DNA of 64,000 bases from Portulaca oleracea (taxonomy: Eukaryota; Streptophyta; Magnoliopsida; Caryophyllales; Portulacaceae): positions 21,727,001 to 21,791,000 of the forward strand of contig CM055876.1 in assembly GCA_029582165.1 (NCBI GenBank). Direction: 5' to 3'. The notes under the pieces are model-generated. The model searched no databases. It saw only the letters and a program-made list of their open reading frames with translations, and was not told where the DNA came from. How positions within the stretch are numbered: position 1 is the first letter of the stretch; each line of letters begins with the position of its first letter. The position numbers and the translations under genes were made by a program. Shown here piece after piece: positions 4,938 through 61,478 of the stretch.

Positions 4938-6930
4938 ATGGCGAGTGCAAGCTCTCCTACAAAGTCCTCTCCATCGTCCCCAGAAAATGTTGAGAAGATG
5001 AAACAAAGAATCAAGTATCTCAACAAGCAAGTAGCATACTACATGCGCTTCAAGATAGGGAGAATCTTGAGGAAGTATCAAGTAAATCATCAAGTGGAGA
5101 AGGAGAAGAGGACGTTCAAGAAAGAGGCATGGACGTCCAAAGGAGGAAAGGTTCGACTTCAAGTGGAGTGAGATCCCGAATTTGTTGGTGATCTTGATCC
5201 TAAGTTTACTTGGATTGGATACAAACCGTGGAAAGGGTCTTTGATCTCAAAGATGTGGAAGATGATAAGAAGGTCAAGTATGTTGCCCTAAAGCTACGAA
5301 AGCATGCAAGCATTTGGTGGACAAACTTGCAAAGAAGCGGCAAGCAAAGGGGAAAGATAAGGTGCGACGTGGGATAAGATGAAAAGAAAGCTCCAAGAAA
5401 AGTTCCTACCATCTAGCTACCTACGTGACAACTACTACAAATTGCAAAGATTGGTCCAAGGAGGAAGAAGCGTGGAGTACACAAAGGAATTTGAGCATCT
5501 ACTTTGGAGGTGTGATCTAAAGGAGGACGAGCCACAAACTTTGGTACGTTATCTTTTGGTCTTAATGATGGGATTAGGCACGTTGTGGAATTACAACCAT
5601 ACAAAACTTTGGATGAATTGAGCTCCTTGTCCCTTAAAGTTGAAAAACAAAGGAGAAATAAGGGGAAAGAAGTCTCAAGCCAATACCAAACTCCACAAAA
5701 AACGCCCCACCCTACGTCCCATCCAAACCCTCCACCATCCACGAAACACATTCCCACAAAAACTCCACAAAATCAGCCCCCATCCATCCCTAAACCTCAC
5801 GACCAAGTGACCAAACCCATAGCATCAAGAAGGTGTTTTCGATGCCAAGGGTTGGGACATTATGCTTCGGAGTGTCCAAATAAGCGAGTAGTGTCTTTGG
5901 TGGAATACCAAAGTGCTTTATATGTAGAGCCGGAGTATGAGGAAGAAGAGGAAGTTGAGGTTGGTGCCAAAGAAGAGGAAGATGTAGTAGAAGAATATGT
6001 GGAAGAGCCGGATGAAGGAGAACTACTTGTGGTAGAAAGGGCCTTGAATATCACAAATGTGCCAAAAGATCAACTACAAAGAGAAGCAATATTTCGCTCT
6101 CGTTGTACCATCCAAGGGAGAGTATGCTCCTTGATCATAGATGGAGGAAGTTGCACCAATGCCGCCTCTACAACAATGGTCAAGAAGTTGCAAATGGAGA
6201 TTAGCCCACATCCCACACCCTACACAATACAATGGTTAAGCCTTGGGCGAGGCATCCGTGTAGATCAACGAGTTTTGGTGAGTCTTTCAATTGGAAAGGA
6301 TTATCAAGATTCATTATGGTGTGATATAGTTCCCATGGATACTTGTCATGTTTTGTTGGGAAGGCCATGGTTATATGATAGACATGTCATACATGATGGG
6401 AGGGCCAACACTTACACTCTCACCATCAACCAAAAGAGGATCACTTTGGCACCTCTTGATCCACCATCTCGGCAAAAGGAGGAGAAACGTCATATTGTGT
6501 CAATCATGAAGGTGGAGAATCAAGGGCATGAAGAGTATAAGGATCCTATTCTTACACATTTGGAGAAGAAAGAAACGGATCCCAGTATCCACCACCTTTT
6601 GAATCTTCCTATGAAGCATATCTTCCATGAGCATCCAAGGGCTATCTACTTGGATCACTTGGTTGAAAGGCCAAGAATTCGAAAGGAGGAAAAAGCCCAA
6701 GTCATCAAGGTACATTGTTTCATACTAAATGACAAGGGTAAAGTGGTAAGAATAAATGAGAAGCAACGTGAGCATTTCACGCGTTCACGGTGGAGAAATG
6801 CAAGTTCAAGTCTTATGGCGTGAGGAAGAAAGTTTAAGAAGTTCATCAAAGGGATCTACGATGACTTCAAAGCTTTCAAGAAGAAAGTCTTTGTAAAGAA
6901 GGCAAGTAAGGGTTGGTTTTCCAAGTTTGA
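4938..6930 (+). pseudogene. A2 gag-protease polyprotein (several frameshifts)
   Basis: The frame opens at the ATG at 4938 and is broken several times between about 5160 and 5600. The longest clean stretch is 5585-6823. Recognisable in order: capsid pieces (LRKHASIWW near 5300, EFEHLLWRCDLKEDE near 5490), a proline-rich linker, a CX2CX4HX4C knuckle (CFRCQGLGHYASEC), an acidic linker, then a retroviral-type protease with active site IIDGGSCTNAAS and the C-terminal LLGRPWLYDRH motif. After PR comes the non-autonomous tail, ending with a copy of KGIYDDFKAFKKK before the PPT at about 6943. No RT or integrase catalytic domain is present. It is closely similar to D1 (45601-47570). Confidence 0.82.
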
Positions 6931-6957
6931 GGACAAACTTTTTCAACCGGGGGTGTA

Positions 6958-8318: not shown

Positions 8319-8361
8319 TTTTTCCAAAGTTTGAGGGCAAACTTTTTCAACCGGGGGTGTA

Positions 8362-14619: not shown

Positions 14620-14662
14620 TACACCCCCGGTTGAAAAAGTTTGCCCTCAAACTTTGGAAAAA

Positions 14663-17304: not shown

Positions 17305-20280
17305 AAGAAGAAGATCACATTGGCCCCATTGCCACCTTCTTCTATTATTCGGCCACCCCAACAAAAGGAGCAAGAAAAGGAGTCCAATATTGTTTCCTTG
17401 CTAAAAGCGGATCAACATGAGTTTCATGAGCAAAAGGAGTTGATTTTGGCGAATTTGCAAGAGGAACAAGCTTCCCCAACTATTGAACACCCACGGCTTG
17501 CCCCCTTGATGAGGAGATTTGGTCATTTGTTTCCAAAAGACATGCCCCACGGCTTGCCACCAAGGAGGGACGTCGAGCATAAGATTGATCTAATTCCGGG
17601 AGCTACATTACCCAACAAGCAAGCATATCGAATGAACCCCAAAGAGTCTCAAGAAGTTCAAAAGCAAGTTGATGAGCTACTCCAAAAGGGTTCAATTCGT
17701 CCAAGTATGAGCCCATGCGCCGTTCCGGTGTTACTAGTTCCAAAGAAAGATGGTACTCAACGTATGTGCATGGATTGTAGGTCCATCAACAAAATCACCA
17801 TCAAATATCGTTTTCCCATTCCACGTTTGGAGGATCTTCTTGATGAACTTTATGGAAGTGTTGTGTTTTCAAAGATCGATTTGAAGAGTGGATATCATCA
17901 AATTCGCATATGTAAAGGAGATGAATGGAAAACGGCTTTCAAAACCAAAGAAGGCTTATATGAATGGTTAGTGATGCCTTTCGGTCTAACAAATGCTCCT
18001 TCTACTTTCATGAGGTTAATGAATCATGTATTGAAACCTTTGATTGGAAAGTGTGTTGTTGTATACTTTGATGACATACTTGTATATAGTAGAAATGAGA
18101 ATGATCATGTAAAGCATATACAGCTAGTTTTGTATATCTTGGAGAAAGAAAAGCTCTACGCAAACTTGGAGAAGTGCTCTTTCTTCTCACCCAAGGTTGT
18201 CTTCCTTGGATATGTGCTCTCCAAAGATGGAATCCACGTCGACCAAGAAAAGATCAAAGCTATCCAAGAATGGCCAACACCAACGAGTATACAAGAGGTA
18301 CGATCATTTCATGGTTTAGCTTCTTTCTATAGAAGATTTATCAAGAATTTCTCTACTATTATGGCTCCTATGACCGAATTGTTGAAGCAAAAGGAGTATT
18401 CTTGGAGTAAAAGCGCTCAATTGGCGTTTGAGAGCATCAAAGAAAAGTTGTGTAACGCACCTCTTCTAGTCTTGCCATGTTTTGACAAAGTATTTGAAGT
18501 AGAAGTGGATGCTAGTGGACTTGGCATTGGTGCTGTCCTTACACAAGAGGGAAGGCCAATTGCTTATTTTAGTGAGAAGTTGAACGAGGCAAAGAGGAAG
18601 TATAGTACATATGATAAAGAGTTCTATGCCATTATAAGAGCTCTTGAGCATTGGAGGCATTATTTGCTAAGTGGAGAGTTCATTCTTCATAGTGATCATG
18701 AAGCTCTCAAATTCATCCAAGGCCAACATAAGCTTAACCCACGCCATGCCAAATGGGTTGAATTTATGCAAGCCTTTCAATTCATGATCAAACACAAAGC
18801 CGGGAACTTGAATAAGGGTGCCGATGCTCTTTCAAGAAGGTACTTACTTACATATATTCTTGATTCTAATGTTGCTGGATTTGAGCATATTAAAGATTTG
18901 TATCAAGATTATCAAGATTTCAAAGAAGTGTATGTTTTGGCGAAGAAACATCCCCATGAAATGTTTCATATTGAAGATGGTTTCCTATTCAAAGGGAATC
19001 AATTATGTATACCAAAGACTTCCTTGCGTGAATTGTTGATTCAAGAGGTCCATGGAGGTGCTTTGGCGGGTCATTTTGGTATATAGAAGACTTATTTGAT
19101 GTTGAGAGATTATTACTTTTGGCCAAGTATGGTGAAAGATGTTGGGCATATTGTGAAGAGATGTGGTACGTGCAATCTTGCCAAGTCACATGTGTTACCT
19201 CAAGGCTTATATACACCTCTACCTATCCCATATCATCCTTGGGAAAATGTGAGTTTAGACTTCGTTGTGGGTCTACCTCGAACTCAAAGAGGTAAAGATT
19301 CTATTATGGTGGTTGTAGATCGATTTTCAAAGATGGCGCATTTTGTACCTTACAACACTACATAAGATGCTACGAGAGTTGCTACTTTATACTTTGATGA
19401 GATTGTTAAGTTGCATGGTATACCCAAGACTATGGTGAGTGATAGAGACTCTAAGTTTCTAAGTCACTTTTGGGTTACTCTTTGGAAGAAGATGGGAACA
19501 AAGCTCAAATTTAGCACGGCATGTCATCCCCAAACGGATGGACAAACTAAAGTTGTCAACCGTACATTGGGAGCTTTATTACGAGCTTTGGTGAGCAAAG
19601 ATAAGAAAAGTTGGGATACTTTGCTAAGTCATGCTGAATTTGCTTGTAATCGGAGTCCAAATCGAGCTACAAAGTTATCTCCATTTGAAGTTGTGTATGG
19701 TAAGAACCCTCTCAAGCCCATGGATTTATCTCCTATATCTACATCAACTAAATTCAGTTTTGAAGCTAATAAGAGAGTGGAGGAGATTAAGAAGTTACAT
19801 GAGGAAGTTCGTGAAAAGATCATGAGGTATACTCAAAGGGTTGAAGAGAAGGTCAATCAAAAGAGGAAGAAGGTTATTTTCAAACCTGGAGACATGGTAT
19901 GGATTCACCTCAAGAAAGAAAGGTTTCCCAATAGAAGAAAAGGGAAATTGAAACCAAGAAGTGATGGTCCTTTTGAGGTTATTGAGAAGATCGGAGATAA
20001 TGCTTACAAGTTGAAGTTAGATGATGGTTATGAGGGAAGTTGTACTTTCAATGTAAGTGATCTCAAACCTTATTATCAAGAAGGAGAAGATATTCCAAGT
20101 TTGAGGGCAAACTTTTCTCAAGAAGGGGTGAATGATGCATATCATACTTCAATACATCAAGAGGAAGCTCTTAAAGACATCACAAACCTTCTACAAGTCA
20201 TTTCAAGTGGTTTCTCACATGACATCACGGGTATCTCCTACACTAAGAGATTTTTGAGCTCCTTATCTCAAGAGTCTTGA
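17305..20280 (+). pseudogene. pol: C2 pol: RT, RNase H, integrase (two stops, mutated IN)
   Basis: One frame throughout. RT ([23 protein letters not shown]), RNase H (VDASG, LHSDHEAL), integrase zinc domain (HH near 19060, CGTCN near 19165), integrase core (LDFVVGLP, SDRDSKF), the GPF-type C-terminal module (DGPFEVIEKIGDNAYKL near 19965) and NVSDLKPYY. No chromodomain follows; the frame runs on across the LTR start at 20133 and ends about 148 bp inside it. Stops: TAG at 19084-19086 and TAA at 19363-19365. The integrase catalytic Glu is Lys (DGQTKVVNR; sister copies have TEVVNR). Coding into the 3' LTR is a hallmark of CRM elements. Confidence 0.88.
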
Positions 20281-26500: not shown

Positions 26501-26709
26501 TCAAGAAAAGCAAGAGGAAGAAGCAAGTTGATATGAACAATACTTTTGGAAAGATCTCTTATAAGACGAGCTTAGAAGAAGTGCTATGTAACGGTTTAGA
26601 AGAAGTTTTGTCTAAGTTTGAGGACAAACTTTTTCAACCGAGGGAGTATGATGTATATTTGCCTAGCTATATACATCAAGGCCTAGCTAAAGGACCTCAA
26701 TCCAGCTAG
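23563..26709 (+). pseudogene. B1 polyprotein: decayed gag-pol in one frame
   Basis: A single frame of about 1,049 codons with two stops (TAA at 24121 and 24748). The likely start is the ATG at 23572 (MDDSSKNSQREL). Order: short gag like family A but with no zinc knuckle, a repeated acidic region (VYDNPLYEEE twice), a protease relic (REGESC where active PR has IDGGSC), the PR-RT linker, an RT remnant lacking the LKSGYHQ block and reading CVYFDNIFV, an RNase H remnant, integrase zinc domain (HGSSFDH, YCDICN), and an integrase core relic (LNF where active IN has LDF) ending in KGIYNDFKAFKKRV. It runs about 60 bp into the LTR. No catalytic activity is expected; any function must be structural or in trans. 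Confidence 0.8.
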
Positions 26710-27735
26710 AAGCTACAAATGTCGCCTTGGGTATCAACAATTACAAGGGTTTATTAGCTCAAGGAAGAAAGCATGAAGGACCTTGATGGTATTCTAGCTT
26801 ACATGGAGTTACTCTCACATTTGGAGGACATCAATGAGCATAAATAACTCTCAAGTCCTTATTGAGAAGTCATCTCTCACGCAAAAGAAGGACTCCATCA
26901 AGTACAGTTCGATATTTTGCTCTATAACTCTAGATCCATACATCTATTGAGGAAATCATCAAAAGACAGATTGGAGCTCTTTCAATAAGCTTTCCAATGG
27001 TTTTTGAATCAATGAAAACGGACAAGTATTGAAGGAGTTATAGCAATTTCTTTCTAGAGTTGTATTTTAGAGTTTATGATGTCATAAATAGGATATATGA
27101 TGTAATAGTTGATTCTTGGTTTCTTGAACCCTAGGTACACGTCCAAGGGGTCCCTAAAGTAGTATAAATAGACCCCTAGGTGCCATTGTATTCATTCAAT
27201 TCAAGTCATTCAATAAATCAAAAACAAACACAAGGTGTTGTTTTCTCTCTAGTTTTGTGCTAGAGCTTTCGTTTCTCTTGAGGGAGAACGAGTATCCCCT
27301 TCTTCTATTCTAAGATTGGCTATCTTAGATGGTGAAAGGAAGGAATTGAAGAGTCTTGAAGGTGGTGTGCCTATATCCTTCAAGAGCTTCAAATCGCCAT
27401 TATCATTCAACCATTCAACGACATTCATCAAGAATTCATCAAGAACTCATCAAGAATTCATCAAGAACTCATCAAGCATTCAATCATCTTCATTCGTTCT
27501 TCAAACGTTCAAAGAGTGTCGTTCATCATCATTCATCATTCGTCATTCCATCATTCGTCATTCATCCATCGTTCATCAAACTTCCATTTGATCTTGGTAA
27601 ACGAATTAATCCCTCTTTTTCGTTTATCTTCATCCATTATCATTCATTTTTGGATCCTTGAGAACTTTGAGAAGCAAGATTCTTATCTTGGTTTTTAAAG
27701 ATCCTTAAATCGTGTGTAATGTGATCATCTTTGAG
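26649..27735 (+). repeat. B1 second LTR (3' end replaced)
   Basis: Starts TGATGTATATTTGCC after the PPT (CCGAGGGAGTA) and matches 22266-23275. It departs at about 27735, where ATCTTTGA continues as GGACAAAC instead of TCCCATTATG. It contains more CATCAAGAA repeats than the 5' LTR. A TATA box (TATAAATA) is near 27163. Confidence 0.85.
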
Positions 27736-27761
27736 GACAAACTTTTTCAACCGGGGGAGAA
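27736..27761 (+). other. Orphan PPT relic between two LTRs
   Basis: GGACAAACTTTTTCAACCGGGGGAGAA is split here: hairpin 3' arm plus polypurine GGGGGAGAA directly before a new LTR start at 27762. It is the normal end of a B internal region with the rest missing. Confidence 0.8.
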
Positions 27762-29103: not shown

Positions 29104-30073
29104 ACAAGGCTTATATACACCACTACCTATTCCATATTACCCTTGGGAAGATGTGAGTTTAGACTTCATTGTGGGTCTACCTCGGACTCAAAGAGGTAAG
29201 GATTCTATCATGGTGGTTATAGATCGATTTTCAAAGATGGCGCATTTTGTACCTTGCAACACTACATATGATGCTACGAAAGTTGTTACCTTATATTTTG
29301 ATGAATTTGTGAAGTTGCATGGCATACCCAAGACTATGGTGACTGATAGGGATTCTAAGTTTCTAAGTCACTTTTGGGTTACTCTTTGGAAGAAGTTGGG
29401 AACAAGACTCAAGTTTAGTATGGCTTGTCATCCACAAACGGATGGACAAACGGAGGTAGTCAATCGAACCTTGGGAGCCTTGTTGAGGACATTGGTGAAT
29501 AAAGAAAAGAAGAGTTGGGATACTTTGTTAAGCATTGTCGAGTTTGCTTATAATAGAAGTCCTAATCGTGCTACAAAGTTATCTCCATTTGAAGTTGTCT
29601 ATGGAAGAAATCCTCTTAAACCCATGGATTTATCTCCTATCTCTACATCTACGAAGTTTAGTTTTGAAGCAAGTAAAAGAGTAGAGGCGATTAAGAAGCT
29701 GCATGAGGAAGTTCGTGAGAAGATTAAGAGATATACTCAAAAGGTTGAAGAGAAAATAAATCAAAAGAGGAAGAAAGTTATATTCAAGCCTGGAGATTTA
29801 GTATGGTTACACTTGAAGATGGAAGATGAGTATGAAGGAAGTTGTACTTTCAATGTGTGTGATCTTAAGCCCTATTATAATGACGATGAAGAAATTCCAA
29901 GTTTGAGGGCAAACTCTTTTCAAGAAAGGGAGAATGATGCATATCATACTTCAATGCATCAAGAGGAAGCCCTAAAGGACCTTACCAGTCTGCTACAAAT
30001 TGTTTCAAGTGGTTACATTGCGAATATCTCCAAAACTAAGGGACTTTTGAGCTCCTTATCTCAAGAGTCTTGA
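29104..30073 (+). pseudogene. pol: C4 integrase, C-terminal module partly deleted
   Basis: An open frame of more than 306 codons: LDFIVGLP, TDRDSKFLSHFW and TEVVNRTLG keep all three catalytic residues. After GDLVWLHLK the GPF/GDNAYKL module is missing (about 38 residues relative to C2) and the frame resumes at YEGSCTFNV. It ends about 139 bp inside the LTR (AYHTSMHQEEALKDL...). The upstream RT and RNase H are absent. Confidence 0.85.
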
Positions 30074-34053: not shown

Positions 34054-35133
34054 ATGGATTGCAAAAGGTCCAGCAAGAATTCCCAACGTGAGCTACAATT
34101 TTTGAAGCAACAAATCGATGATCTTGCCAAGCAAATTGAAGAATGTGGGATTCTTTCAAAAGGGTCAAGAAGCACAAGATCATGTGTGGTTCACTCTTGT
34201 AAGGTTGAATATGAAGCACCTTATGCCCCGAGTAAACATTCCAACAAAAAGAATGGGAAGAAAGTTCAAGAAGATTTCTTGCCATCCGATTACAAAGGTG
34301 ACTCCATCAACAATCTTGAAGGAGTTAAGCAAGGGAGCATGGATGTACTTGAATATACAATAGAGTTCAAGTGGCAATTATGGAAGAATGGCCTTAAGGA
34401 GGACGATCCACGCAATCTGGTATACTACTTTCTTGGTTTTAATGATTACATTCGACGTGTTGTTGTAAATCAACCTCTCACAAACTTGGAAGAGTTAAGT
34501 TCTTTAGCTCTCGATGTTGAAAGACAAAGGAGATGTTGTCATTGCCAAAGTTTAGGTCACATTGATTTGGAATGTCCTAACAAGAAGAAAGGTGTGTCTT
34601 TGGTTGAGTACCAAACACATGATAACAAACCATTTGAAGAGGAAAAGGAAGAGGAAGTTGGCGTTGACATGAAAGAAGAAGAAATTGGGAATGTCGCATA
34701 TGAGGAGGAGAATAAAGAAGAAGAAATTGGGAATGTCGCATATGAGGAGGAGAATAAAGAGGAAGAAAAGGAAGAAGAGGAGCATATGGAAAAGTGGCTT
34801 GTGACAAAAGAAGCAAGTGTGGCGTATGAGCATCCAAAAGATATCTACTTAGATCATTTGATTGAAAGGCCGAAAATTCGAGAGGATGAAATCGCCCAAG
34901 TCATCAAGGTACATTGTTTCATGCTAAATGACAAGGGTAAAGTGGTAAGAATAGACTTGGGGAGTGAGAAGCAACGTGAACAACCCACGTTCATGGTGAA
35001 GAAACGCAAATCCAAGTCTTATGGTGTTCGAGAAATCATCGGAAGAAAGTTTAAGAAGTTCATCAAAGGAATCTACGATGACTTCAAAGCTTTCAAGAAG
35101 AAAGTCTTTGTGAAGGAGACAAGTGAGAGTTGA
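34054..35133 (+). CDS. A3 gag-like protein, intact 359-codon ORF
   Basis: The only uninterrupted element-specific frame among the family A copies. The ATG at 34054 follows AGGTTCTA, as in its sisters. Order: N-terminal helix (QRELQFLKQQ), shortened capsid (EYTIEFKWQLW, FLGFNDYIRRVVV), knuckle CHCQSLGHIDLEC (CX2CX4HX4C), and an acidic linker in which a 13-residue unit (EEEIGNVAYEEEN) is duplicated. It then jumps from SVAYEHP straight to KDIYLDHLIERPKI, omitting the protease relic of A1/A0/A5; the join lies in a CATCCA shared by both parents. The tail after the join reads like D1 (KDIYLDH). It ends with GIYDDFKAFKKK and TGA. Probable role: a capsid-type packaging protein acting with a partner's pol; unproven. 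Confidence 0.78.
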   Translation: MDCKRSSKNSQRELQFLKQQIDDLAKQIEECGILSKGSRSTRSCVVHSCKVEYEAPYAPSKHSNKKNGKKVQEDFLPSDYKGDSINNLEGVKQGSMDVLEYTIEFKWQLWKNGLKEDDPRNLVYYFLGFNDYIRRVVVNQPLTNLEELSSLALDVERQRRCCHCQSLGHIDLECPNKKKGVSLVEYQTHDNKPFEEEKEEEVGVDMKEEEIGNVAYEEENKEEEIGNVAYEEENKEEEKEEEEHMEKWLVTKEASVAYEHPKDIYLDHLIERPKIREDEIAQVIKVHCFMLNDKGKVVRIDLGSEKQREQPTFMVKKRKSKSYGVREIIGRKFKKFIKGIYDDFKAFKKKVFVKETSES

Positions 35134-35139
35134 TCTTCC

Positions 35140-35204
35140 AAAGTTTGAGGACAAACTTTTTCAACCGGGGGTGTATGATGCATAATTGATGGCCTTATGC
35201 ATCA
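35140..35204 (+). promoter_or_regulatory. Hairpin-PPT-hairpin cassette (A3 example)
   Basis: AAAGTTTG (35140-35147) pairs perfectly with CAAACTTT (35152-35159) around AGGA. Sixteen bases containing the PPT (CCGGGGGTGTA) follow. Then TGATGCATAA (35176-35185) pairs perfectly with TTATGCATCA (35195-35204). The same layout occurs at the 3' LTR of every family (for example 20097-20151, 26614-26678, 42755-42817). The function is inferred only. Confidence 0.7.
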
Positions 35205-38102: not shown

Positions 38103-38151
38103 TACTCCCCCGGTTGAAAAAGTTTGTCCTCAAACTTAGACAAAACTTCTT

Positions 38152-42509: not shown

Positions 42510-42938
42510 GTCAATCAAAAGAGGAAGAAGGTTATTTTCAAACCTGGAGACATGGTATGGATTCACCGCAAGAAAGAAAGGTTTCCAAATAGAAGAAAAG
42601 GGAAATTGAAACCAAGAAGTGATGGTCCTTTTGAGGTTATTGAGAAGATTGGAGATAATGCTTACAAGTTGAAGTTAGATGATGGTTATGAGGGAAGTTG
42701 TACTTTCAATGTAAGTGATCTCAAACCTTATTATCAAGAAGGAGAAGAGATTCCAAGTTTGAGGGCAAACTTTTCTCAAGAAGGGGTGAATGATGCATAT
42801 CATACTTCAATGCATCAAGAGGAAGCTCTTAAAGACATCACAAACCTTCTACAACTCATTTCAAGTGGTTTCTCACATGACATCACGGGTATCTCCTACA
42901 CTAAGAGATTTTTGAGCTCCTTATCTCAAGAGTCTTGA
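42510..42938 (+). pseudogene. pol: C5 integrase C-terminus, running into the 3' LTR
   Basis: It resumes after B2 at NQKRKKVIFKPGDMVW. The GPF-type module (DGPFEVIEKIGDNAYKL) and NVSDLKPYYQEGEEIPSLRAN are followed by the PPT and then 148 bp inside the LTR, ending RFLSSLSQES and a stop. The integrase end thus overlaps the LTR, as known for CRM elements. Confidence 0.87.
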
Positions 42939-47570: not shown

Positions 47571-47612
47571 TTTTCCAAAGTTTGAGGACAAACTTTTTCA
47601 ACCGGGGGTGTA

Positions 47613-48456: not shown

Positions 48457-48810
48457 TTATGAGGGAATTTGTACTTTCAATGTAAGTGATCTCAAACCTT
48501 ATTATCAAGAAGGAGAAGAGATTCCAAGTTTGAGGGCAAACTTTTCTCAAGAAGGGGTGAATGATGCATATCATACTTCAATGCATCAAGAGGAAGCTCT
48601 TAAAGACCTCACAAACCTACTACAACTCATTTCAAGTGGTTTCTCACATGACATCACGGGTATCTCCTACACTAAGAGATTTTTGAGCTCCTTATCTCAA
48701 GAGTCTTGAAGATCTCATTCATATTGAAAATAATCACAAATCTCTCTAAAGTTGCTATGCTTTAGTTTTCTCTCTAGTTTTGGCTAGAATTCGAAATCCC
48801 TTTTGGTTTT
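48457..48810 (+). pseudogene. pol: C7: integrase C-terminus and partial 3' LTR
   Basis: YEGICTFNVSDLKPYYQEGEEIPSLRAN leads into the LTR at 48562 and a stop at 48707-48709. The LTR then has a deletion of roughly 230 bp (GTCTTGAA joined to GATCTCATTCATATTG), removing the TATA box, and is cut at 48810 by B3. The upstream flank is D1. Confidence 0.84.
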
Positions 48811-49310
48811 TGATGCATAATGGGAACAGAGATGATCACATTACACACAATATAAGGATCTTTAAAAACCAAGATAAGAATCTTGCTTCTCAAAGTTCTC
48901 AAGGATCCAAAAATGAATGATAATGGATGAAGATAAACGAAAAGAGGGATTAATTCGTTTACCAAGATCAAATGGAAGTTTGATGAACGATGGAATGACG
49001 ATTGATGAATGATGATGAACGACACTCTTTGAACGTTTGAAGAACGAATGAAGATGATTGAATGCTTGATGAGTTCTTGATGAATGTCGTTTGAATGGTT
49101 GAATGATAATGGCGATTTGAAGCTCTTTGAAGGATATAGACACACCACCTTCAAGACTCTTCAATTCCTTCCTTTCACCATCTAAGATAGCCAATCTTAG
49201 AATAGAAGAAGGGGATACTCGTTCTCCCTAAAGAGAAACGAAAGCTCTAGCTCAAAACTAGAGAGAAAACAACACCTTTGTGTTTGTATTTGATTTATTG
49301 AATGACTTGA
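48811..49310 (-). repeat. B3 3' LTR, left part
   Basis: Starts TGATGCATAATGGGAACAGAG and follows the B LTR to TGACTTGA at 49310, resuming at 54614 (ATTGAATGAATACAATGG). CTTGA at 49306-49310 and 54609-54613 is the array's TSD. Confidence 0.88.
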
Positions 49311-50263
49311 TGATGCATAATTGATGGCCTTATGCATCAAGGTCAACCATGGGGACATCTAATACTCACCTAGAAGAAAGAAGAGCTCAAGTCTCTCCTA
49401 TATCTCTCTACTTGGAAGGGATCAACTCATGTGGTCGTATACTTTTGCTCCTTAATTCAAGGACCATGAAGCTATCATAGAAGTCATCCTAGAGAGGATT
49501 ATTCTACATTCCAAGAGCTTTCATATGGTTCAAGAATCTTTAAGTTTGGATGAGAATCCAAGGAGTTATTCATATTTGTAATATAGTTTAGTACATTGTT
49601 TTCTTAATGATGTAAGCATTAGGATGAATGATGTAAGCCCATATGGGCCTCTTTCTTGAAGTTGTACATGCCATAAGGGAGGGTTGTAGCTATAAATACC
49701 CCCCTTAGGGAGCTTTGTAAATCAATTCATTCACATTGAATTTTTAGATTTCAAACACAAGGTGTGTTCATTCTAGCTTTCATGCTAGGTGTTTTTCGTT
49801 TCTCTCTTGTGGGATTCGAATCATCCCCTTCTTCTAGCTAAGGTTGGCATCCTTAGTGGTGAAAGGAAGGAATTGAGGGTCTCTTGAAGGTGGTGTGGCT
49901 ATATCCTTCCAAGAGTCTTTAAAAGCCATCATCTATCCGTCGTTATTCATCCATTTATCATCCTTTTCGTGATATTCATCAAGAATTCAACAAGAATTCA
50001 TCAAGCATTCAACAAGAAGCGTTTGTTCTTCATCAAACACGTTCAAGCTTCATTCGTCATCATCGTTCATCATTCGTTTGTCCATTCGTTCATTATTTCT
50101 ATCCATTTGGTAACCATCTTTCATAGTTCTTTCCATCCTTTTTCATCCATTTCTATTCCATTTTTGGTTCTTTGGAACTTTGAGAAAGGAGATTCCTATC
50201 TTCGTTTTTAAAGATCCTTAGATATTGTGTAATGAGATCTTCCCTTGGTCTCATTATGCATCA
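49311..50263 (+). repeat. Mini-array LTR 1
   Basis: TGATGCATAATTG to CTCATTATGCATCA; TATA box at 49691-49698. Same A subfamily as 1-933 (both have the CCATGGGGACATC variant). Confidence 0.9.
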
Positions 50264-50759
50264 AATTTGGTATCAGAGCTTAGGAGTTTGAATCTCTTAG
50301 TTCTTGAAACAATCTTTTTACAATCTTTCCCTCTCCCACACGTTCCCCATCACACGTCCATCACAAAATTTCATTCCCCATCATCTCTCCATCACACGCC
50401 ACCCTTAAGTTCTTCCAAGAATTCATCAAGAACTCATCAAGCATTCAGTCATCTTCATTCGTTCTTCAAACGTTCAAAGAGTGTCGTTCATCATCATTCA
50501 TCAATCGTCATTCCATCGTTCATCAAACTTCCATTTGATCTTGGTAAACGAATTAATCCCTCTTTTCGTTTATCTTCATCCATTATCATTCATTTTTGGA
50601 TCCTTGAGAACTTTGAGAAGCAAGATTCTTATCTTGGTTTTTAAAGATCCTTAAATCGTGTGTAATGTGATCATCTTTGATCCCATTATGCATCAAAATT
50701 GGTATCAGAGAGTTGATTTTTCCAAAGTTTGAGGGCTAACTTTTTCAACCGGGGGTGTA
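50264..50759 (+). mobile_element. Mini-element internal segment 1
   Basis: Order: PBS (50268-50279), family A 5' leader to about 50430, the last ~265 bp of a family B LTR ending at 50695, a second PBS lacking its last base (TGGTATCAGAG, 50700-50710), then about 49 bp of family A tail with hairpin and PPT. Joins lie in CATCAAGAACTCATCAAG shared by both parents and in a GAG at the PBS. No gag. Confidence 0.88.
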
Positions 50760-51712
50760 TGATGCATAATTGATGGCCTTATGCATCAAGGTCAACCATG
50801 GGGACATCTAATACTCACCTAGAAGAAAGAAGAGCTCAAGTCTCTCCTATATCTCTCTACTTGGAAGGGATCAACTCATGTGGTCGTATACTTTTTCTCC
50901 TTAATTCAAGGACCATGAAGCTATCATAGAAGTCATCCTAGAGAGGATTATTCTACATTCCAAGAGCTTTCATATGGTTCAAGAATCTTTAAGTTTGGAT
51001 GAGAATCCAAGGAGTTATTCATATTTGTAATATAGTTTAGTACATTGTTTTCTTTATGATGTAAGCATTAGGATGAATGATGTAAGCTCATATGGGCCTC
51101 TTTCTTGAAGTTGTACACGCCATAAGGGAGGGTTGTAGCTATAAATACCCCCCTTAGGGAGCTTTGTAAATCAATTCATTCACATTGAATTTTTAAATTT
51201 CAAACACAAGGTGTGTTCATTCTAGCTTTCATGTTAGGTGTTTTTCGTTTCTCTCTTGTGGGATTCGAATCATCCCCTTCTTCTAGCTAAGGTTGGCATC
51301 CTTAGTGGTGAAAGGAAGGAATTGAGGGTCTCTTGAAGGTGGTGTGGCTATATCCTTCCAAGAGTCTTCAAAAGCCATTATCTATCCGTCGTTATTCATC
51401 CATTTATCATCCTTTTCGTGTTATTCATCAAGAATTCAACAAGAATTCATCAAGCATTCAACAAGAAGCGTTTGTTCTTCATCAAACACGTTCAAGCTTC
51501 ATTCGTCATCATCGTTCATCATTCGTTTGTCCATTCGTTCATTATTTCTATCCATTTAGTAACCATCTTTCATAGTTCTTTCCATCCTTTTTCATCCATT
51601 TCTATTCCATTTTTGCTTCTTTGGAACTTTGAGAAAGGAGATTCCTATCTTCGTTTTTAAAGATCCTTAGATATTGTGTAATGAGATCTTCCCTTGGTCT
51701 CATTATGCATCA
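50760..51712 (+). repeat. Mini-array LTR 2
   Basis: 953 bp; TATA box at 51140-51147. Very similar to LTR 1. Confidence 0.9.
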
Positions 51713-52208
51713 AATTTGGTATCAGAGCTTAGGAGTTTGAATCTCTTAGTTCTTGAAACAATCTTTTTACAATCTTTCCCTCTCCCACACGTTCCCCATC
51801 ACACGTCCATCACAAAATTTCATTCCCCATCATCTCTCCATCACACGCCACCCTTAAGTTCTTCCAAGAATTCATCAAGAACTCATCAAGCATTCAGTCA
51901 TCTTCATTCGTTCTTCAAACGTTCAAAGAGTGTCGTTCATCATCATTCATCAATCGTCATTCCATCGTTCATCAAACTTCCATTTTATCTTGGTAAACGA
52001 ATTAATCCCTCTTTTCGTTTATCTTCATCCATTATCATTCATTTTTCAATCCTTGAGAACTTTGAGAAGCAAGATTCTTATCTTGGTTTTTAAAGATCCT
52101 TAAATCGTGTGTAATATGATCATCTTTGATCCCATTATGCATCAAAATTGGTATCAGAGAGTTAATTTTTCCAAAGTTTGAGGGCTAACTTTTTCAACCG
52201 GGGGTGTA
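51713..52208 (+). mobile_element. Mini-element internal segment 2
   Basis: Same layout as segment 1: PBS at 51717-51728, B LTR part ending at 52144, second PBS at 52149-52159, PPT before 52209. Confidence 0.88.
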
Positions 52209-53161
52209 TGATGCATAATTGATGGCCTTATGCATCAAGGTCAACCATGGGGACATCTAATACTCACCTAGAAGAAAGAAGAGCTCAAGTCTCTCCTATA
52301 TCTCTCTACTTGGAAGGGATCAACTCATGTGGTCGTATACTTTTGCTCCTTAATTCAAGGACCATGAAGCTATCATAGAAGTCATCCTAGAGAGGATTAT
52401 TCTACATTCCAAGAGCTTTCATATGGTTCAAGAATCTTTAAGTTTGGATGAGAATCCAAGGAGTTATTCATATTTGTAATATAGTTTAGTACATTGTTTT
52501 CTTTATGATGTAAGCATTAGGATGAATGATGTTAGCCCATATGGGCCTCTTTCTTGAAGTTGTACATGCCATAAGGGAGGGTTGTAGCTATAAATACCCC
52601 CCTTAGGGAGCTTTGTAAATCAATTCATTCACATTGAATTTTTAGATTTCAAACACAAGGTGTGTTCATTCTAGCTTTCATACTAGGTGTTTTTCGTTTC
52701 TCTCTTGTGGGATTCGAATCATCCCCTTCTTCTAGCTAAGGTTGGAATCCTTAGTGGTGAAAGGAAGGAATTGAGGGTCTCTTGAAGGTGGTGTGGCTAT
52801 ATCCTTCCAAGAGTCTTTAAAAGCCATCATCTATCCGTCGTTATTCATCCATTTATCATCCTTTTCGTGTTATTCATAAAGAATTCAACAAGAATTCATC
52901 AAGCATTCAACAAGAAGCGTTTGTTCTTCATCAAACACGTTCAAGCTTCATTCGTCATCATCGTTCATCATTCGTTTGTCCATTCGTTCATTATTTCTAT
53001 CCATTTGGTAACCATCTTTCATAGTTCTTTCCATCCTTTTTCATCCATTTCTATTCCATTTTTGGTTCTTTGGAACTTTGAGAAAGGAGATTCCTATCTT
53101 CGTTTTTAAAGATCCTTAGATATTGTGTAATGAGATCTTCCCTTGGTCTCATTATGCATCA
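52209..53161 (+). repeat. Mini-array LTR 3
   Basis: 953 bp; TATA box at 52589-52596. Confidence 0.9.
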
Positions 53162-53655
53162 AATTTGCATCGAGCTTAGGAGTTTGAATCTCTTAGTTCT
53201 TGAAACAATCTTTTTACAATCTTTCCCTCTCCCACACGTTCCCCATCACACGTCCATCACAAAATTTCATTCCCCATCATCTCTCCATCACACGCCACCC
53301 TTAAGTTCTTCCAAGAATTCATCAAGAACTCATCAAGCATTCAGTCATCTTCATTCGTTCTTCAAACGTTCAAAGAGTGTCGTTCATCATCATTCATCAA
53401 TCGTCATTCCATCGTTCATCAAACTTCCATTTTATCTTGTTAAACGAATTAATCCCTCTTTTCGTTTATCTTCATCCATTATCATTCATTTTTCGATCCT
53501 TGAGAACTTTGAGAAGCAAGATTCTTATCTTGGTTTTTAAAGATCCTTAAATCGTGTGTAATGTGATCATCTTTGATCCCATTATGCATCAAAATTGGTA
53601 TCAGAGAGTTGATTTTTCCAAAGTTTGAGGGCTAACTTTTTCAACTGGGGGTGTA
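53162..53655 (+). mobile_element. Mini-element internal segment 3
   Basis: 494 bp. The first PBS is the degenerate TGCATCGAGC (53166-53175), which accounts for the 2-bp shortening. The second PBS (53596-53606) is as in the other units. The PPT reads ACTGGGGGTGTA. Confidence 0.88.
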
Positions 53656-54608
53656 TGATGCATAATTGATGGCCTTATGCATCAAGGTCAACCATGGGGA
53701 CATCTAATACTCACCTAGAAGAAAGAAGAGCTCAAGTCTCTCCTATATCTCTCTACTTTGAAGGGATCAACTCATGTGGTCGTATACTTTTGCTCCTTAA
53801 TTCAAGGACCATGAAGCTATCATAGAAGTCATCCTAGAGAGGATTATTCTACATTCCAAGAGCTTTCATATGGTTCAAGAATCTTTAAGTTTGGATGAGA
53901 ATCCAAGGAGTTATTAATATTTGTAATATAGTTTAGTACAATGTTTTCTTTATGATGTAAGCATTAGGATGAATGATGTAAGCCCATATGGGCCTCTTTC
54001 TTGAAGTTGTACACGCCATAAGGGAGGGTTGTAGCTATAAATACCCCCCTTAGGGAGCTTTGTAAATCAATTCATTCACATTGAATTTTAAGATTTCAAA
54101 CACAAGGTATGTTCATTCTAGCTTTCATGCTAGGTGTTTTTCGTTTCTCTCTTGTGGGATTCGAATCATCCCCTTCTTCTAGCTAAGGTTGGCATCCTTA
54201 GCGGTGAAAGGAAGGAATTGAGGGTCTCTTGAAGGTGGTGTGGCTATATCCTTCCAAGAGTCTTCAAAAGCCATCATCTATCCGTCGTTATTCATCCATT
54301 TATCATCCTTTTCGTGTTATTCATCAAGAATTCAACAAGAATTCATCAAGCATTCAACAAGAAGCGTTGGTTCTTCATCAAACACGTTCAAGCTTCATTC
54401 GTCATCATCGTTCATCATTCGTTTGTCCATTCGTTCATTATTTCTATCCATTTGGTAACCATCTTTCATAGTTCTTTCCATCCTTTTTCATCCATTTCTA
54501 TTCCATTTTTGGTTCTTTGGAACTTTGAGAAAGGAGATTCCTATCTTCGTTTTTAAAGATCTTTAGATATTGTGTAATGAGATCTTCCCTTGGTCTCATT
54601 ATGCATCA
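53656..54608 (+). repeat. Mini-array LTR 4
   Basis: 953 bp; TATA box at 54036-54043. Followed by CTTGA and the rest of the B3 LTR. Confidence 0.9.
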
Positions 54609-54613
54609 CTTGA

Positions 54614-55167
54614 ATTGAATGAATACAATGGCACCCTAGAGGGTCTTTTTATACTACTTTATGGACCCCTTGGACATGTACCTAGGGTTCAAGAAACCAA
54701 GAATCAACTATTACATCATATATCCTATTTATGACATCACAGACTCTAAAATACAACTCTAGAAAGAAATTGCTATAACTCCTTCAATACTTGTCCGTTT
54801 TCATTGATTCAAAAACCATTGGAAAGCTTATTGAAAGAGCTCCAATCTGTCTTTTGATGATTTCCTCAATAGATGTATGGATCTAGAGTTATAGAGCAAA
54901 ATATCGAACTATACTTGATGGAGTCCTTTGCTGTCGTGAGAGATGACTTCTCAATAAGGACTTGAGAGTTATTTATGCTCATTGAAGTCCTCCAAATGTG
55001 AGAGTAACTCCATATAAGCTTAGAAGTTTGAGGACTAAGCTTAGAGTACCTTCAAGGTCCTTTACGCCTTCTACCTTGATAAACCTAAGACGACATTTGT
55101 AGCTTCAAACTGGATTAAGGTCCTTGTAGCTAGACCTTGATGTATATAGCTAGGCAAATATACATCA
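54614..55167 (-). repeat. B3 3' LTR, right part
   Basis: U3 side ending TATATACATCA at 55167. The TATA region reads TTTTTATA near 54645, one change from the usual TATTTATA. Confidence 0.87.
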
Positions 55168-55216
55168 TTCTCCCCCGGTTGAAAAAGTTTGTCCTCAAAC
55201 TTAGACAAAAATTCTT

Positions 55217-58976: not shown

Positions 58977-61090
58977 TCCCCCCCAAGTTGCGAAGAGTTT
59001 GCCCTCAAACTTGGTAGCTCGTCTCCTTCAGCATAGTAAGGCTTCAAATCAGAAACATTGAACGTAGCACTTCCTCCATAATCATCTGAAAGTGACAGCT
59101 TGTAGGCATTGTCTCCCACCTTCTCTAACACTTCATAAGGACCATCTGCCCTGGGAACCAACTTGCCCTTCCTCTTAGATGGAAAACGATCCTTCCTGAG
59201 ATGGATCCACACGAGATCCCCAGGTTGGAAAACCACCTTTCTTCTACTTTTGTTAGCCAAAGTTGAAGCTTTCTCATTGAACTTGGCTATCTTTTCTCGG
59301 ACATGTTGGTGTAGCTCATGAATCTCCTTGGCTCTTACACTAGCATCATGGCTGAACCTGGTTGAGGTAATTATGGGAGCCAAATCCATAGGGGTGATTG
59401 GATTCCTCCCATACACTACTTGAAATGGGGACAGACCAGTAGCCTTGCTAGGAGCTCGGTTAAATGCAAACTCAGCGTGAGGAAGCAAAGTATCCCATCC
59501 CTTCTTGTCTTTGTTCACTAAGGACCTCAGCAGTGTACCAAGAGTCCTGTTGGTGACCTCCGTTTGGCCATCAGTTTGGGGATGACATGCTGTGCTGAAC
59601 TTGAGTTTGGTACCGAACTTCTTCCATAATGTCACCCAAAAGTGACTCAAGAACTTTGCATCACGATCAGAAACCATGGATTTAGGAACTCCATGTAGCC
59701 TTACAACCTCCTGGAAGTATAACTCAGCAACTCTCACAGCATCATAAGTAGTGTGACATGGAATAAAGTGAGCCATCTTTGAAAAACGATCAACAACCAC
59801 CAAAATAGAATCTTTACCTCTTTGGGTCCTTGGCAACCCAACAATGAAGTCCAGACTGATATCTTCCCAAGGACCTTGGGGTATAGGCAGTGGGGTATAA
59901 AGACCTTGTGGTAGGCTGTGACTCTTCGAAAGTTGGCATATTGAACACCTTTTGACCAAGTGCTCAACGTCCTTCTGCATCCTGGGCCAGAAATAATGCT
60001 CCTTCATCATCAACGTAGTCTTCTCGATCCCAAAGTGTCCTGCCAAACTACCTCCATGAACCTCCAAGATGAGAAGCTCACGTAGGCTAGTCTTTGGAAT
60101 GCACAGTTTGTTTCCCTTGAAGAGAAACCCATGCTCAATGTGGAATAGATCTCCTTGGGGCCGCTGCTGACATGCTTCATAAATCTCCTTGAAGTCTTCA
60201 TCTTCCGGATATAAGGCCTTGAGGTGCTCAAAACCAAGCACTCTTGAGTCAAGGACATGCAACAAAAGGAACTTCCTTGAGAGGGCGTCAGCTCCTTTAT
60301 TCAAGTGACCGGCCTTGTGGTGGATCATGAAATGATAGGCTTGCATATACTCAACCCATTTGGCATGGCGAGGGTTTAGTTTATGCTGGCCGTGAATGAA
60401 CTTGAGGGCCTCATGTCACTATGCAAAATGAACTCAGTACCAATAAGATAATGCCTCCAATGCTCCAATGCCCGAATGATCGCATAAAACTCCTTGTCAT
60501 ACACACTGTACTTCTTCTTGGCATCGTTCAACTTCTCGCTAAAATAAGCAATAGGCCTGCCTTCTTGAGATAAGACAGCTCCTATGCCCAACCCAGACGC
60601 ATCACACTCAACTTCAAATACCTTTGAGAAACTAGGCAAAGGCCTTCTGTGCCGTTGGAGTCCAAGAGAAACCTTTAGCCTTCACTAACTCAGTCATGGG
60701 AGCTAGGATGGTGCTAAAGTTCCTCACAAACCTCCTATAGAAGGAAGCCAATCCATGGAAACTCCTCACTTGCTGGATGGTGGTGGGGACGGGCCAATCT
60801 CTTATAGCTTGAATCTTCTCTTCATCCACCTGAATGCCTCGCGAGATCACATAGCCAAGGAACATAACTTTGTCGGTGAAGAATTGGCATTTCCCTAAGT
60901 TTCCATAAAGCTTCTCCTTGGATAGTATATCCATCACAGCTTGCAAATGCTTGACATGATCCTCCTCATTGTGGCTATAAACAAGTATGTCATCAAAGTA
61001 GACAACAACACACTTGCCTATAAGGGCCTTCAGAACCTGGTTCATCAACCTCATAAAAGTAGATGGGGCGTTAGTTAAATATTCACAAAT
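58829..61090 (-). pseudogene. pol: E pol: RT (part), RNase H, integrase
   Basis: Minus strand. RT from [14 protein letters not shown] with YFDDILVYS (61090-60632), RNase H ([27 protein letters not shown]; 60639-60376), then a frameshift near 60415. The uninterrupted 505-codon part (60346-58829) has integrase zinc domain (HGGSLAGHFG, CSICQ), core (LDFIVGLP, SDRDAKFLSHFW, TEVTNRTLG, all three catalytic residues), GPY module (DGPYEVLEKVGDNAYKL) and NVSDLKPYY. The frame crosses the LTR edge at 58976 and ends about 148 bp inside. The N-terminal half of RT, and gag-PR, are missing. Confidence 0.87.
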
Positions 61091-61434: not shown

Positions 61435-61478
61435 TACACCCCCGGTTGAAAATAGTTTGCCCTCAAACTTTGGAAAAA

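Follow-up and report, generated by a model that had tools for sequence, protein, structure and literature searches.

The stretch of Portulaca oleracea DNA analysed here (64,000 nucleotides of contig CM055876.1, hereafter the window) maps to C9:21727001-21791000 of the 1.13-Gb plant genome and is a nest of CRM-like Ty3/gypsy retroelements. Directly upstream of the starts of their long terminal repeats (LTRs) lies a short inverted repeat, AGTTTG-AGGR-CAAACT, able to form a hairpin (hairpin 1) next to the polypurine tract (PPT); the window holds 14 exact copies of it. At up to three mismatches the degenerate 16-mer has 25 matches in the window, against 1.66 expected by chance. Besides the exact copies, there are three with one mismatch, located in a tandem array, and one with two mismatches (27728). 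In all 18 resulting cassettes the 16-mer leads into T-rich sequence and then a G-rich tract, with TGATG 18-19 nucleotides (nt) past the 16-mer; a candidate nineteenth cassette at 55025 was rejected, the row not being a cassette. The 16-mer is identical across families A, B, C and E, though their upstream sequences are mostly unlike. No Rfam family matched the window at its gathering score.

The original prediction, made from the sequence of the window, had assigned positions to the hairpins of the four families, and all were found where claimed. In family A, hairpin 1 (35140..35159, forward strand) has an 8-bp stem with the loop AGGA and lies past the gag stop. It is followed by a pyrimidine/U-rich stretch and the PPT (35160..35175, forward), so that the LTR begins 18 nt from the 6-bp core and 16 nt from the 8-bp stem, and then by an inverted repeat with 10-bp arms at the LTR start (hairpin 2; 35176..35204, forward). 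Other family A copies occupy 6924..6939, 8328..8343 and 47579..47594 on the forward strand, and 14638..14653 and 61454..61469 on the reverse strand; the first of these is read through as SKFEDKL, and the one at 47579 lies past the stop of a zinc-knuckle open reading frame (ORF). The hairpin 1 core of family B (26615..26630, forward) is translated as KFEDKL, and further family B copies are found on the reverse strand at 38121..38136 and 55186..55201. Family C is represented by 20098..20113 (translated as SLRAN), 42756..42771 (with an LTR-start inverted repeat beginning at 42791), 48527..48542 and a C-like copy at 29900..29915, all on the forward strand, and family E by 58996..59011 on the reverse strand, without a comparable repeat at the LTR start. 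The four imperfect cassettes lie on the forward strand: a family B-type cassette with two mismatches, its left arm damaged by a deletion joint (27728..27743), and three in which a stem pair is broken (CTAACT), within tandem units of LTR, primer-binding site (PBS) and cassette, at 50726, 52175 and 53622 (50726..53637).

Families C and E have the Ty3-type reverse transcriptase (RT)/RNase H and the integrase with a Tf2-type SH3 domain that characterize the CRM clade. RVT_1, RT_RNaseH and SH3_Tf2-1 scored above the cut-off in family C, with rve slightly below it in the C-like copy; in family E, whose RT lies outside the scan, H2C2 and SH3_Tf2-1 were above the cut-off and rve slightly below. At 13 sites of the window ATGCATCA is followed by TGGTATCAGAG, representing the LTR end and the PBS (for E the PBS is not separately shown), and we take this PBS to be that of tRNA-Met. 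As in group A CRM elements, the C Pol ORF (19366-20280) continues past the LTR start at 20133, and the E ORF likewise passes its LTR start (58976) and extends as far as 58829. LTR ends in the window, with TGATG after each of the 18 cassettes, agree with the TGATG/CATCA ends that, together with a conserved group A PPT, are described for the CRM clade in passages of Neumann 2011 (PMC3059260).

The reading frames over the hairpin differ among the families in the way that had been claimed: the C ORF (19366-20280) reads P-S-L-R-A-N, family B and the A copy at 6924 read S-K-F-E-D-K-L, and at 35142 in family A the hairpin lies beyond the stop at 35133. The third frame is used in a probable fern element (L002), where the hairpin is read as TKRGRF. 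Family A looks non-autonomous, because two of its three scanned ORFs (34048, 46257 and 5516) match a zinc knuckle only and one has no Pfam match, and its retention of the hairpin is as expected of a cis element.

Across the genome the exact 16-mer occurs in 9632 copies (5087 + 4545), compared with three for a reversed-pattern control. Among the first ~100 places listed, exact copies are dense at G000:C1:23.3-23.9 Mb, perhaps the centromere of that chromosome. In 28 further CRM-type copies, all from one contig (8 plus 20 picked from the list), TGATG lies 18 nt beyond the 6-bp core in 12, 19 nt in 13 and 17 nt in one, the other two having no exact TGATG, and the letters of the spacer clearly differ among copies. 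At the protein level, the equivalent residue count is constant in 80 of 86 CRM-type proteins.

The hairpin is not specific to CRM: other chromovirus groups and two probable fern elements carry a like hairpin with different stem letters, mostly with a 6-8 bp stem, mostly with an NGGN loop, and with the closing base mostly 24-27 nt from the LTR. For the genomic loci concerned we use the names Tekay and Reina as presumed labels. Among the 30 best loci of a search with a Tekay-like Pol, the hairpin (A/G)AGTTTCG-[A/G]GGA-CGAAACT(T/C) follows soon after the Pol stop, with both arms intact in 27 of the 30 (including L158, whose first copy has the loop GGAA) and the outer pair compensated in L161, L162 and L172. 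A search with a Reina-like Pol gave 83 rows, from which 28 loci were taken (8, then 20 more picked by place); 26 of these have, before the PPT, an NGGN hairpin with perfect pairing over at least 5 bp, with many different stems. Thus, a stem of at least 5 bp closed by G-C, with an NGGN loop and located before the PPT, is found in 26/28 Reina-type and 27/30 Tekay-type loci, L158 among the latter having GGAA instead. The closing base lies 26 nt from the LTR in 14 of 26 Reina-type loci and 23-28 nt in the rest, one being without a value; it lies 24-26 nt away in 28 of 31 Tekay-type cases, if the LTR start is assumed to be TGTRA, and 25 (L007) and 26 (L002) nt away in the probable ferns, where the LTR start is likewise a deduced one. 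In a copia control (12 of 150 rows, presence of the PPT inside the flank unconfirmed), 11 of 12 flanks had no candidate and one had a candidate with 5/7 pairs.

Tekay-type loci often carry the cassette of hairpin, PPT and LTR start twice, 85-113 bp apart, with the loops GGGA and then AGGA; both cassettes are perfect in 8 of 18 plus-strand loci (L145, L150, L152, L157, L159, L160, L163 and L164). The loci L001-L012, which came from an integrase search, are plant, probable fern (Azolla, judging from a Trichormus bin) and other eukaryotic retroelement contigs within prokaryote assemblies, that is, contamination. Two of them, from unknown eukaryotes in prokaryote bins, have hairpins directly before a G-rich tract with another loop and spacing (L010 at ~1870-1920, L006 at ~4995-5060). 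In addition, PITA_ proteins, presumably from pine, end in H-R-D-D-V, which could encode the hairpin CATCG-GGA-CGATG with a 3-nt loop, here seen as protein and not as DNA. No integrase relatives were found in viral contigs, where the listed matches of DNA hairpin patterns were, by our estimate, near chance level (another pattern gave three matches). A tblastn search of plasmids and phages returned three records below 30% identity, and a second one none.

Candidates for covariation analysis were taken by a rule that demands G-NGGN-C followed by G-rich sequence and accepts the first candidate, the closing pair being set by this selection; at L149, L158, L163 and L164 it took the second cassette. 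Under this rule, 22 of 27 Reina-type candidates have seven pairs (four have 6, one has 2), as do 23 of 28 Tekay-type candidates (three have 6, two have 2). In an alignment of 37 sequences, chosen from 63 rows with near-duplicates and the wrong-motif rows L151, L170 and L200 left out, six of eight pairs have changed on both sides; there are 68 double-change cells compared with 21.3 after shuffling, and 92.6% of cells are paired compared with 73.5%. Across 28 distinct arm pairs (63 loci, misses retained), 84.2% of positions at pairs 2 to 8 are Watson-Crick, whereas shuffled arms reach 51.7% (maximum 61.7% of 1000 shuffles) and slid arms 15-37%. Among 11 chosen sequences, which include the two ferns and leave out L001, both sides have changed in seven of eight pairs. 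The original prediction had made its case depend on covariation and on presence in related CRM elements; with shuffle and slide controls, rather than R-scape, covariation is present and the hairpin extends well beyond CRM.

A second line of evidence comes from proteins in which the hairpin is read in frame, by asking what their codons could encode and not which codons are observed. A C-like query had 4173 integrase-end relatives under the E-value limit; among the 120 listed, the anchor that precedes the C-terminal motif is present in 94, of which 86 also contain the motif (x-[L/S]-[R/G/W/E/T]-x-x-x, positions 4 and 5 restricted) and 8 are truncated or different. Position 3, over the loop, is R in 75, G in 6, W in 3, T in 1 and E in 1, and R, G and W all have NGG codons. 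A perfect 6-bp stem within the 16-mer can be encoded by 41 of 46 distinct hexapeptides, compared with 21.6 (standard deviation 2.6, maximum 30 of 2000) when left and right halves are shuffled; in a stricter, R-only set the figures are 31 of 36 and 14.0 (maximum 23). On a tree of the 86 proteins, the base classes of the first and sixteenth positions each change seven times, and in six of these cases both change on the same branch (0.29 expected, P 1.6e-9), under a codon rule (serine as A-first, AGY; L and R as C-first) that favours pairing at unseen codons. The paired residues 1 and 5 share five branches (0.66 expected), the unpaired control x5/x6 shares one (1.1 expected), and x2/x4, where a change can be silent, two (1.4 expected). 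For the second frame, two fern Pol pieces served as queries; of 208 listed relatives 42 lack the anchor, 139 lack the motif and 27 have it. The x-x-[E/A/G]-D-x-x hexapeptides can encode a perfect 7-bp stem, i.e. have flanking codons that are reverse complements, in 13 of 16 distinct cases, compared with 2.25 for shuffles (maximum 7 of 2000) and 8 of 138 for a protein-core control.

Because the covariation is seen in DNA and, hidden, in protein, in two reading frames, selection on nucleic acid rather than on protein is strongly supported by these sequence comparisons; the original prediction had argued for such selection, and its argument from joint coding and non-coding use also holds. Purely protein conservation is thus rejected: that the conserved entity is a Pol C-terminal peptide (SLRAN, FEDKL, DLRTN and the like) would fit the in-frame motif of CRM-type Pol and of some chromodomain elements, but it is contradicted by the different frames, by the copies past the stop in A at 35142 and at Tekay-type loci, and by residues that covary as reverse-complement codons demand, and we give it almost no credence.

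The hairpin, then, is present, covaries, keeps a narrow spacing and occurs in several reading contexts. The layout of the element is a stem of mostly 6-8 bp with largely free sequence and kept pairing, closed mostly by G-C, with a mostly NGGN loop, followed by a U-rich stretch, the PPT and the LTR. Since its halves change together even where protein is also encoded, the hairpin is probably a working part of element copying. The reading we favour, with some reservation, is that it constitutes a conserved cis-acting hairpin of plant chromoviruses which would form part of the plus-strand priming site. During minus-strand synthesis on the genomic RNA, the enzyme would copy U3, then the PPT, and would next run into the foot of the stem. 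If it stalled at that point, its own RNase H domain would be kept above the PPT/U3 junction, and RNase H so placed would cut the 3′ end of the primer at a fixed point. The hairpin would thus act as a ruler, with distance, in addition to the purine tract, determining where the LTR ends. Close spacing to the junction combined with free stem letters points to such geometry. Among the functions originally proposed, plus-strand priming and RNase H cleavage are favoured by the near-fixed distance, whereas integrase end recognition is disfavoured and, by inference, rejected, given the location of the hairpin, which is inside the 3′ LTR boundary and not at an end of the complementary DNA (cDNA). More tentatively, plant chromoviruses may have in common an ancient, structured origin of the plus strand, in which an NGGN hairpin, set at a given distance from the PPT/U3 junction, would serve as the RNase H ruler and would have moulded the C-terminal end of Pol in different frames since before the split of ferns and flowering plants.

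Isolated hairpins have predicted folding energies of about -1 to -10 kcal/mol (about -4 to -10 for intact stems), and minimum-energy folds of 71-91 nt keep the hairpin in A, C, L002 and L145 and not in B, E and L007. Several results weigh against the priming-site reading or lie outside it. Within a context of ~140 nt the stems are weak, the mean core-pair probability exceeding 0.5 in only 22 of 37 sequences; in the window it is 0.42 and 0.62 for A and 0 to 0.05 for B, C and E. The element is not one that could be found by thermodynamics alone, and the evidence for it is evolutionary. Some of the covariation counts are not clearly above shuffles: in the 37-sequence alignment the number of pairs changed on both sides was reached by 58 of 500 shuffles and that of further pair types by 435 of 500, and in the 11-sequence alignment further pair types were reached by 35 of 500. 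Five of the 46 CRM-type hexapeptides cannot encode a perfect stem with a 4-nt loop (three of them could with a 5-nt loop), and the leaning of the codon rule on the tree belongs here too. There are also defective or missing hairpins: Tekay-type L155, L156 and L167 are one base off and L171 has lost its PPT; Reina-type L195 has lost the left arm and L200 has a stem mismatch; L001, from a plant, has a stem of only 4 bp, and in the other 11 loci of its search, several without a clear 3′ end, a comparable hairpin precedes the PPT only in L002 and L007, the latter with the loop AGAG and an A-T closing pair.

The proposed geometry has its own difficulty. In HIV-1 RT the polymerase and RNase H sites are 17-18 apart. 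The distance from stem base to LTR (17-19 nt for the 6-bp CRM core, 16-22 nt in Reina-type loci) is nearer to that value than to the ~13 bp described for Ty3 RT in part of PMC5371799, and, with the stem base ~16-22 nt away, a halt at the stem or a few nt before it would be needed. Moreover, the conservation of NGG in the loop is suggestive of a protein bound there, for which a stall alone would have no need.

Such a protein is the core of the first alternative, in which the hairpin is a binding site on the genomic RNA for the Gag nucleocapsid, RT or integrase, where it would serve packaging or the choice of template and be recognized through its NGGN loop. Nucleocapsids bind G-rich loops, and the residue at the loop position is R, G or W, with their NGG codons, in 84 of 86 proteins (no residues other than R, G, W, E and T were allowed there by the search); the loops of the genome candidates are NGGN, though here the search rule demanded GG, and the non-autonomous family A retains the hairpin. 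On the other side, we would not expect a packaging signal to need such constant spacing from the PPT/LTR junction, and the loops AGAG in the probable fern L007 and GGAA in the first copy of Tekay-type L158 depart from NGGN. We consider this explanation unlikely, though it is the main alternative.

It is more doubtful still that the inverted repeat acts as DNA, whether by offering a dyad site to a protein of the host or of the element or by folding into a hairpin within single-stranded cDNA. The pairing is symmetric, plus- and minus-sense strands, folded in isolation as RNA, are nearly equal (mean -6.7 and -7.1 kcal/mol), and the data fit RNA and single-stranded DNA alike, which counts against the priming-site reading as well. 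However, a dyad site for a single protein would keep its letters, whereas stem letters differ between groups, and the tie of the hairpin to the PPT points to reverse transcription.

Very little speaks for a role in translation or 3′ processing of the messenger RNA at the end of the ORF: the hairpin is near the Pol stop in Tekay-type and near the Pol end in Reina-type elements, but the C ORF contains it and continues into the LTR, and its spacing is kept relative to the PPT/LTR junction. Similarity through recent common descent alone, with no selection, which the recent and similar copies within a family might suggest, is hardly credible given repeated paired changes on common branches and a compensated structure also in the probable ferns, whose integrase shares only 36-39% identity with the CRM-type query.

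The original prediction held that the PPT lies between two hairpins in all families. Hairpin 1 is indeed found in all four, and hairpin 2 in A, B and C, but in E the LTR-start repeat is only 3 bp long. It is 8-10 bp in all six A copies measured, 10 bp in all three B copies, and 8 bp in three of four C copies (5 bp in the fourth). In the genome, repeats of at least 8 bp are present in 11 of 26 measurable copies and in L141 and L224 (8 bp, 3-nt loop), while Reina-type and Tekay-type loci have 2-6 bp, near background; the generality of hairpin 2 is accordingly rejected, and it is a family-level feature. In B the repeat (TGATGTATAT/ATATACATCA; 26649..26678, forward) is compensated relative to A and C, with TGATGTAT/ATACATCA in place of TGATGCAT/ATGCATCA, so that hairpin 2 may also be real pairing in A, B and C.

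Two rearranged regions of the window involve the cassettes. The tandem array at 49310-55030 consists of ~1449-bp units, each with LTR, PBS, broken-stem cassette and PPT; the internal region is deleted and the PBS almost touches the hairpin. It resembles the maize CRM1TR/CRM4TR tandem repeats described in passages of PMC3648361. A deletion derivative lies at 27700-27760: a family B-type LTR end has been joined, through a TTTGA microhomology, to the central part of the hairpin, and PPT and LTR follow.

Several known features resemble the hairpin in part. The PPT inverted repeat of Sirevirus and other Ty1/copia elements is, according to passages of Bousios 2010 (PMC2829016), likewise tied to the terminal PPT and, in short-linker elements, also partly within the pol frame. 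Unlike that repeat, which encloses the PPT between a left arm at the PPT and a right arm in the LTR, hairpin 1 of the Ty3/gypsy chromoviruses has both arms upstream and leaves the PPT outside. A T-rich stretch such as the U-box before the PPT, described in part of PMC10085805 as a sequence signal with no stem mentioned there, also lies between hairpin and PPT here. The GalEa Conserved Hairpin Site of fungi, as presented in passages of PMC5445492, is another conserved hairpin at an LTR junction, but it follows immediately after the 5′ LTR, and the elements that carry it lack a PBS. Bongo3 of Beta has a second PPT (PPTa) near the gag-pol stop, like the doubled Tekay-type cassette, and the passages of PMC3605345 concerned mention no hairpin. 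For Ty3, passages of PMC11381356 describe a lower base-pairing probability at the PPT. The text passages of the CRM survey (PMC3059260), figures and supplements aside, do not mention the hairpin. A literature search by title, abstract or passages, subscription papers, figures and supplements aside, yielded no description of it, and the motif strings occurred in paper texts only in papers unrelated by title.

Knowledge of how LTR retrotransposons fix the exact start of the plus strand comes mainly from retroviruses and yeast elements, with the purine tract as the focus. A structural element at a near-fixed distance, shared by several groups of plant chromoviruses and retained in a non-autonomous family, would bring a rule of distance into this picture. 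The hairpin would also be of practical use in marking 3′ ends and LTR borders, those of degraded or non-autonomous elements among them, and it is a clear case of nucleic-acid structure imprinted on protein sequence in different frames.
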